Assembly (NCBI RefSeq): GCF_004015795.1 | Contig: NZ_ML137218.1 | Coordinates: forward strand, 600,048-664,047 | Direction: 5' to 3' | Source of the DNA: Falsirhodobacter deserti | GTDB lineage: Bacteria > Pseudomonadota > Alphaproteobacteria > Rhodobacterales > Rhodobacteraceae | DNA length: 64,000 nt | Shown here: piece after piece, positions 15,138 to 54,429 of the stretch | Layout: every line of letters starts with the position of its first letter | Numbering within the stretch: position 1 is the stretch's first letter | Program-made: the position numbers and the translations under genes | Notes under the pieces: model-generated | What the model was told of the DNA's origin: nothing | Seen by the model: only the letters and a program-made list of their open reading frames with translations | Databases searched by the model: none

Positions 15138-15171
15138 TATTACCGCTGCCTGAACCATTTCGAGGACGATC

Positions 15172-16296
15172 ATGCGCACCGAGATCCAGCACCACGCCGA
15201 GACGATCCGCAAGACGCTGGAGCTTCTTGCGCAGCGCATGGATCGCGAAACGGCCAGCCACCGGCTGGAAGAATTCGATGCCATGATCGAAGCGGGCGAC
15301 ATCTGGAACGATCCTGCGAAGGCGCAAAAGCTGATGCGCGACCGTCAGGCGCTGATGGACCAGATCTCCACCTAGGATCTGATCGAAAGCGGGTTGAACG
15401 ACAATATCGAGCTGATCGAACTGGGCGAGGCCGAGGGCGATTCCGAGATCGTGTCCGAAGCTGAAAACGCGATCCGCGAGCTGGTGACGCTGGCGCAGGC
15501 GAAAGAGCTTGAGGCCCTGCTGGATGGCGAGGCCGACAGCAACGACACCTTCCTTGAAATCAACGCCGGTGCCGGCGGCACCGAAAGCTGCGACTGGGCC
15601 TCCATGCTGGCGCGGATGTATGTGCGCTGGGCGGAAAAGAAGGGCTACAAGGTCGAAACCCAGTCCATCTCGGAAGGGGAGGAGGCGGGGATCAAATCCG
15701 TGTCCTACAAGATCAGTGGCCTGAACGCCTATGGCTGGTTGAAGTCGGAATCCGGCGTGCACCGCTTGGTGCGGATCTCTCCCTATGACTCGGCGGCGCG
15801 GCGGCACACCTCCTTCAGTTCTGTCTGGGTTTATCCCGTGGTGGACGACAATATCGAGATCACCGTGCCCGATAACGAGATCCGGATCGACACCTACCGT
15901 TCATCGGGTGCGGGCGGGCAGCACGTGAACACCACCGACTCGGCCGTGCGGATCACGCACATCCCGACGGGCATCGTGGTGACAAGCTCTGAAAAGTCGC
16001 AGCACCAGAACCGCGCCAATGCCATGGCCGCCCTGAAATCGCGCCTTTACCAGATGGAGCTGGATCGTCGGAATGCCGCGATCAATGCCCAGCACGAGGC
16101 GAAGGGCGATGCGGGCTGGGGCAACCAGATCCGTTCCTATGTTTTGCAGCCCTACCAGATGGTGAAGGACCTGCGCACCAACGTGGAAACCTCGGACACG
16201 CAGGGCGTGCTGGATGGCGATCTGGACCGCTTCATGGCGGCAACGCTGGCGCAGGACGTGGCAGGCAAAAGCCGCGCCGAAGCGAACGCGGAATAA
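15172..16296 (+). CDS. prfB: Peptide chain release factor 2, interrupted by an in-frame UAG
   Basis: Release factor 2 reads UGA/UAA and triggers peptide release. The 375-codon frame aligns end to end with the family, but codon 68 (15373-15375) is TAG with the frame unchanged before and after. Upstream is domain 1 (67 residues: [20 protein letters not shown]). Downstream the rest is intact: [11 protein letters not shown], the anticodon-reading tripeptide region [14 protein letters not shown] (SPY where E. coli has SPF), the catalytic GGQ in SGAGGQHVN and the C-terminal [10 protein letters not shown]. The classical regulatory +1 frameshift in prfB occurs at a UGA near codon 26, so this is different. 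A TTG at 15394 could restart translation but lacks a good binding site. It could be a base error, a mutation or a readthrough signal. Confidence 0.85.

Positions 16297-52830: not shown

Positions 52831-54429
<1,599 letters not shown>

Follow-up and report, generated by a model that had tools for sequence, protein, structure and literature searches.

How a bacterium supplies itself with release factor 2 (RF2) when the gene for that factor is interrupted by a stop codon is the question raised by the prfB locus of Falsirhodobacter deserti. In the window, the 64,000-nucleotide stretch of the genome that was analyzed, the prfB reading frame spans 15172..16296 on the + strand (374 codons plus stop) and holds one TAG, at 15373..15375 (+), codon 68 when the ATG at 15172 is taken as codon 1. 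The open reading frame list gives a 67-aa ORF (15172-15375) followed by a 300-aa ORF (15394-16296), both in one frame. Residues 10-66 of the 67-aa part match positions 2-58 of the prfB profile TIGR00020 (E 4.8e-6, profile search), and this part also aligns with E. coli RF2 in the PDB over residues 14-64 (E 1.6e-6); its score against Pfam PCRF, 14.2 bits, lies below the 24-bit cut-off. Residues 2-285 of the 300-aa part correspond to TIGR00020 positions 68-352 and score 449.8 bits against a cut-off of 370, which is also passed by the frame read through the TAG (489.7 bits). The 300-aa part keeps PCRF from profile position 59 onward together with the entire RF-1 domain, and contains the SPY and GGQ motifs. 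The open reading frames and profile matches in a single frame confirm the original prediction of an in-frame nonsense codon inside prfB of the supplied sequence, with RF2 sequence on both sides.

A Shine-Dalgarno-like GAGGA (15162..15166, +) lies 5 nt upstream of ATG 15172, with a duplex energy of -5.9 kcal/mol (this and the other duplex energies were computed against an assumed 16S tail), and GAGG precedes the prfB ATG in all seven genus members. The ratio of private nonsynonymous to private synonymous codons is 1/2 before the TAG and 1/10 after it, so that on these small counts the codons on either side still look constrained. On the 5' side, the neighbors of prfB match an AMIN/Amidase_3 amidase and a PBP1A-family penicillin-binding protein, while those on the 3' side, on the opposite strand, match bactofilin and an M23 peptidase.

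RF2 is essential, and since TGA terminates 219 of the 309 genes called in a 400-kb sample of this genome, its lack should be lethal. The assembly comprises 2.98 Mb in 7 contigs. A profile search of the whole genome returned a single match above the prfB cut-off, carrying '1 TAG'; the second match (269.5 bits) is RF1, and the third (30.5 bits) is short and weak. The original prediction had proposed looking for a second prfB, and the assembly holds none. An intact prfB might nevertheless be present in the cell, either as a missed second copy or in a mixed culture whose minority base entered the consensus, and the assembly does have an unresolved join and stretches that read N. Against this stand a completeness of 100%, the failure to find a second copy of the 251-bp region around the TAG in the assembly, which makes that region single-copy, and the presence of one match above the prfB cut-off in each of the seven genus members. 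We regard an overlooked intact copy as highly improbable.

Among 86 relatives (the six congeners plus the best 80 of at least 586 confirmed loci), none has an internal stop in prfB. The gene is stop-free in all six other species of the genus, with Tyr at codon 68 in three and Phe in three. Across the 86, counted without the row of the window itself and without six rows that are RF1, this variable codon is Tyr in 69, His in 7, Phe in 5, Cys in 2, Val in 2, and Ala in 1, which bears out the earlier statement that Tyr is frequent at this position. When 394 genomes across the family were searched, 377 of them had a match above the prfB cut-off, and no stop occurred among the matches listed, which do not include the source genome. 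In a prfB tree, the congener designated G001 adjoins the source genome with a support of 0.96. From these comparisons, the TAG is private to the source genome among the relatives compared. A sense codon in relatives had been put forward as grounds for rejecting the TAG altogether; the sense codon is there in 86 of 86, but all of them are other species, and the stop is therefore private rather than false. As for independent sequences of the species itself, an exact pattern gave 0 matches in viral_contigs, and the plasmid collection returned 5 records, the best full-length match having 79.9% identity and coming, like the others, from other genera.

The source genome has 20 private prfB sites in all, of which gene positions 196-240 hold 3, compared with 0-2 in each congener; a cluster of private changes around the TAG was considered and dropped, the sites being too few. 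Eight codons past the TAG, codon 76 (window 15397-15399) encodes Asn through two private base differences, and Arg stands there in all six congeners.

Gene calling in 400 kb of G001 gave 295 genes, which we compared with 400 kb of the source genome under a filter of 60% identity and 70% coverage that genes shortened below 70% would not pass. The filter was passed by 92 of the 295 genes, and nine were flagged. Among these nine, prfB alone has a stop within the conserved gene body; the other flags are seven over-extended ORF calls and one 10-N scaffold join (partly read by eye), and the 92 genes contain no frame break other than at that join. With the two genomes exchanged, 3 of 106 genes were flagged, and these flags are partly explained. 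In a coding-potential scan of that 400 kb of the source genome, where candidates were stops with 50 stop-free codons on each side, the prfB TAG ranked third among 1491 stops, and the two that scored higher are gene boundaries by eye. Applied to 400 kb of G001, where there were 1592 candidates, the scan gave five stops at 0.28 or above, equal to the prfB TAG or higher; because G001 scores equally high, we treat the scan as supportive rather than discriminating. A second 400 kb of the source genome yielded 1475 candidates, the top 16 of which resemble gene boundaries, with a start codon within nine codons past each stop.

Judged by the 92-gene comparison, the second 400 kb, and an identical 447-nt duplicate, base quality otherwise looks good, and neither an error-rich genome nor UAG suppression is apparent in the sampled sequence. 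The duplicate is found at the 10-N scaffold join, which lies outside the window at G000:C1:834301-834310 in source-genome coordinates and has 447 of 447 identical bases on both sides; the bases show two overlapping contigs that were left unmerged, an assembly artefact by which a conserved gene is split. Directly 5' of the window, a 5000-N run ends (G000:C1:595048-600047), and a tRNA-Met follows at window position 2132, from which the run may be a masked rRNA operon.

If the TAG is real, a near-cognate or suppressor tRNA might read it to give full-length RF2. RF1 would then compete at the UAG, so that high RF1 would lower RF2 output, mirroring the known UGA circuit. The frame and the coding potential do run on across the TAG. 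The regulatory slot also appears to be empty in Rhodobacterales, because the available text of PMC12421855 counts 486 genomes of this order that do not have the classical frameshift, against just two in which it seems to be present. However, no CUA anticodon is present among the 44 Rfam tRNA matches. Because tRNA-Tyr, detected by ARAGORN with the usual GTA anticodon, had escaped the Rfam search, we added a pattern search for a CUA anticodon loop plus T-loop in the whole genome outside masked stretches, and its single match was tRNA-Arg(TCT). Given their own anticodons, the same pattern form recovers 32 of 40 distinct known tRNAs, and its Tyr version recovers tRNA-Tyr. An amber suppressor tRNA, one of the options named in the original prediction, was thus not found among the Rfam matches or by the pattern outside masked stretches.

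UAG is, moreover, a normal terminator: it closes 36 of the 309 genes called in the 400-kb sample of the source genome and 37 of 295 in G001. The TAG is shared by 0 of the 86 relatives, and the available text of PMC12421855 gives TAG at the motif stop in 0 of 8,164 genomes with the frameshift motif (98.6% TGA, 1.4% TAA). RF1 carries no change private to the source genome in columns where the six congeners agree. Readthrough would need either a decoder of a kind that our searches did not find or near-cognate reading, and we consider it very unlikely that RF2 is made in this way. The mirror circuit of the original prediction is not supported, given an unshared stop, the lack of a CUA tRNA in our searches, an RF1 that is not unusual, and the ordinary use of UAG as a stop.

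Two broader ideas were set aside as well. Genome-wide recoding of UAG was ruled out by stop usage and by the lack of any other interrupted gene among those sampled, and an altered RF1 substituting for RF2 was ruled out by an RF1 without private change. ARAGORN also reported a tmRNA gene (tmRNA*, tag ANDNRAPMAVAA) at L132 14703-15035 (-), which is at about 478.7-479.0 kb of G000:C1.

A real TAG might also be where RF1 terminates, with the ribosome restarting at a start codon close by, TTG 15394 or another. The candidate restart ORF (15394..16296, +; ORF list and profile matches) begins 18 nt 3' of the TAG and would encode a 300-aa RF2 without the first 74 residues, and so without most of domain 1, that still reads UGA and UAA and releases the peptide. 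This product by itself exceeds the prfB cut-off. In its available text, PMC1586002, citing Mora et al. 2003, describes domain 1 as dispensable for recognizing stops and for hydrolysis, and because of that description, a real nonsense codon bypassed by restart or readthrough is conceivable. A reviewer quoted in the same text mentions slow growth without domain 1 and that RF2 seems to need this domain more than RF1 does. The gene for RF3, a partner described as acting via domain 1 of the release factors, also argues against restart, since prfC is intact and stop-free (52843..54399, -; G000:C1:652890-654446; TIGR00503, 654.7 bits); loss of RF3, which could have made domain 1 dispensable, was ruled out on the same grounds.

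Initiation signals at the TTG point in both directions. No anti-Shine-Dalgarno pairing was found at normal spacing before TTG 15394, where the duplex energy is 0.1 kcal/mol, compared with a median of -4.8 for called starts (n=144) and the far stronger value at ATG 15172. This lack is not fatal, because about a tenth of the 144 called starts pair no better (90th percentile 0.3). A long-spaced pairing of -10.6 kcal/mol in the stretch 5' of the TTG, a value reached by 22 of 551 internal TTG codons, looked good as an extended restart signal; G001, which does not have the TAG, gives -10.0 at the equivalent place, so the pairing is not specific and was rejected as a signal. Restart at this TTG, which the original prediction had listed, is thus feasible but would proceed from a site without a well-placed Shine-Dalgarno sequence, and we consider a truncated RF2 made by restart unlikely.

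The explanation we favor, and consider probable, is that the TAG is an isolated consensus base error, or that the clone which was sequenced had mutated; this judgment follows prior odds and not a direct test. An error or an unrepresentative clone is favored because the TAG is private, solitary, and located in an essential single-copy gene, with no compensating feature found in the form of a second prfB, a CUA tRNA, or a private RF1 change. The stop-free prfB of the relatives, the retained GAGG, the constrained codons, the unmerged overlap as an artefact in this assembly, and the broken prfA genes surveyed in PMC12421855 (described below) also speak for it. The TAG would then be one nonsense codon in one genome record and not a programmed signal, and in nature the species most likely produces a normal, full-length RF2 that begins at the ATG its relatives also use. 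A base-calling error was the first option named in the original prediction, and it is the one we favor here. Against it, base quality otherwise looks good, and a single error that falls in an essential gene is improbable for any one genome, and the argument presupposes, as we infer, that many genomes were scanned.

A reading in which the UAG is real and has become fixed in F. deserti, with RF2 made only via UUG restart or readthrough, strikes us as quite unlikely. If this were true, RF2 supply would be tied to how active RF1 is, in a lineage that does not have the classical UGA feedback, and the locus would provide a natural test of RF2 working without most of domain 1, or of RF1 control of RF2. 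It would also be the first UAG-interrupted prfB known to us: no description of one was found in the titles and abstract openings of the literature searched, and none is recorded for the frameshift motif in the available text of PMC12421855. As it stands, the locus is a warning against calling recoding from a single genome.

Several known systems resemble this locus in part. The +1 frameshift through which RF2 autoregulates likewise places a premature stop inside prfB, near codon 26 or so in the classical case. It differs in using UGA and a frame change, whereas here a UAG at codon 68, read by RF1 and seen in one genome, leaves the frame the same; no CTTTGA slippery site after a Shine-Dalgarno-like run was seen by eye in the prfB sequence. 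The codon and the unchanged frame rule out the classical frameshift, as the original prediction had concluded. Release factor H (PrfH) is a class-I release factor without domain 1, and the 300-aa restart product would likewise be without most of it; the two differ in that this part scores far higher as RF2 (449.8 bits) than as PrfH (112 bits, under the PrfH cut-off of 166.65). In-frame stops proposed as readthrough in PMC7918605 share with the prfB TAG the conservation of the gene on both flanks, but that study, in its available text, required the same stop in at least two genomes as a guard against sequencing errors, and the prfB TAG is present in one. A further parallel, in the available text of PMC12421855, is a set of 34 genomes whose sole prfA is annotated as a pseudogene: there too an essential release-factor gene is broken, in most cases in a species with a single genome, at a position that is not conserved and has no motif. 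Those cases concern prfA and not prfB, are described as needing a frameshift, and number 34 genomes where ours is one, and for them the authors left sequencing error open as an explanation.
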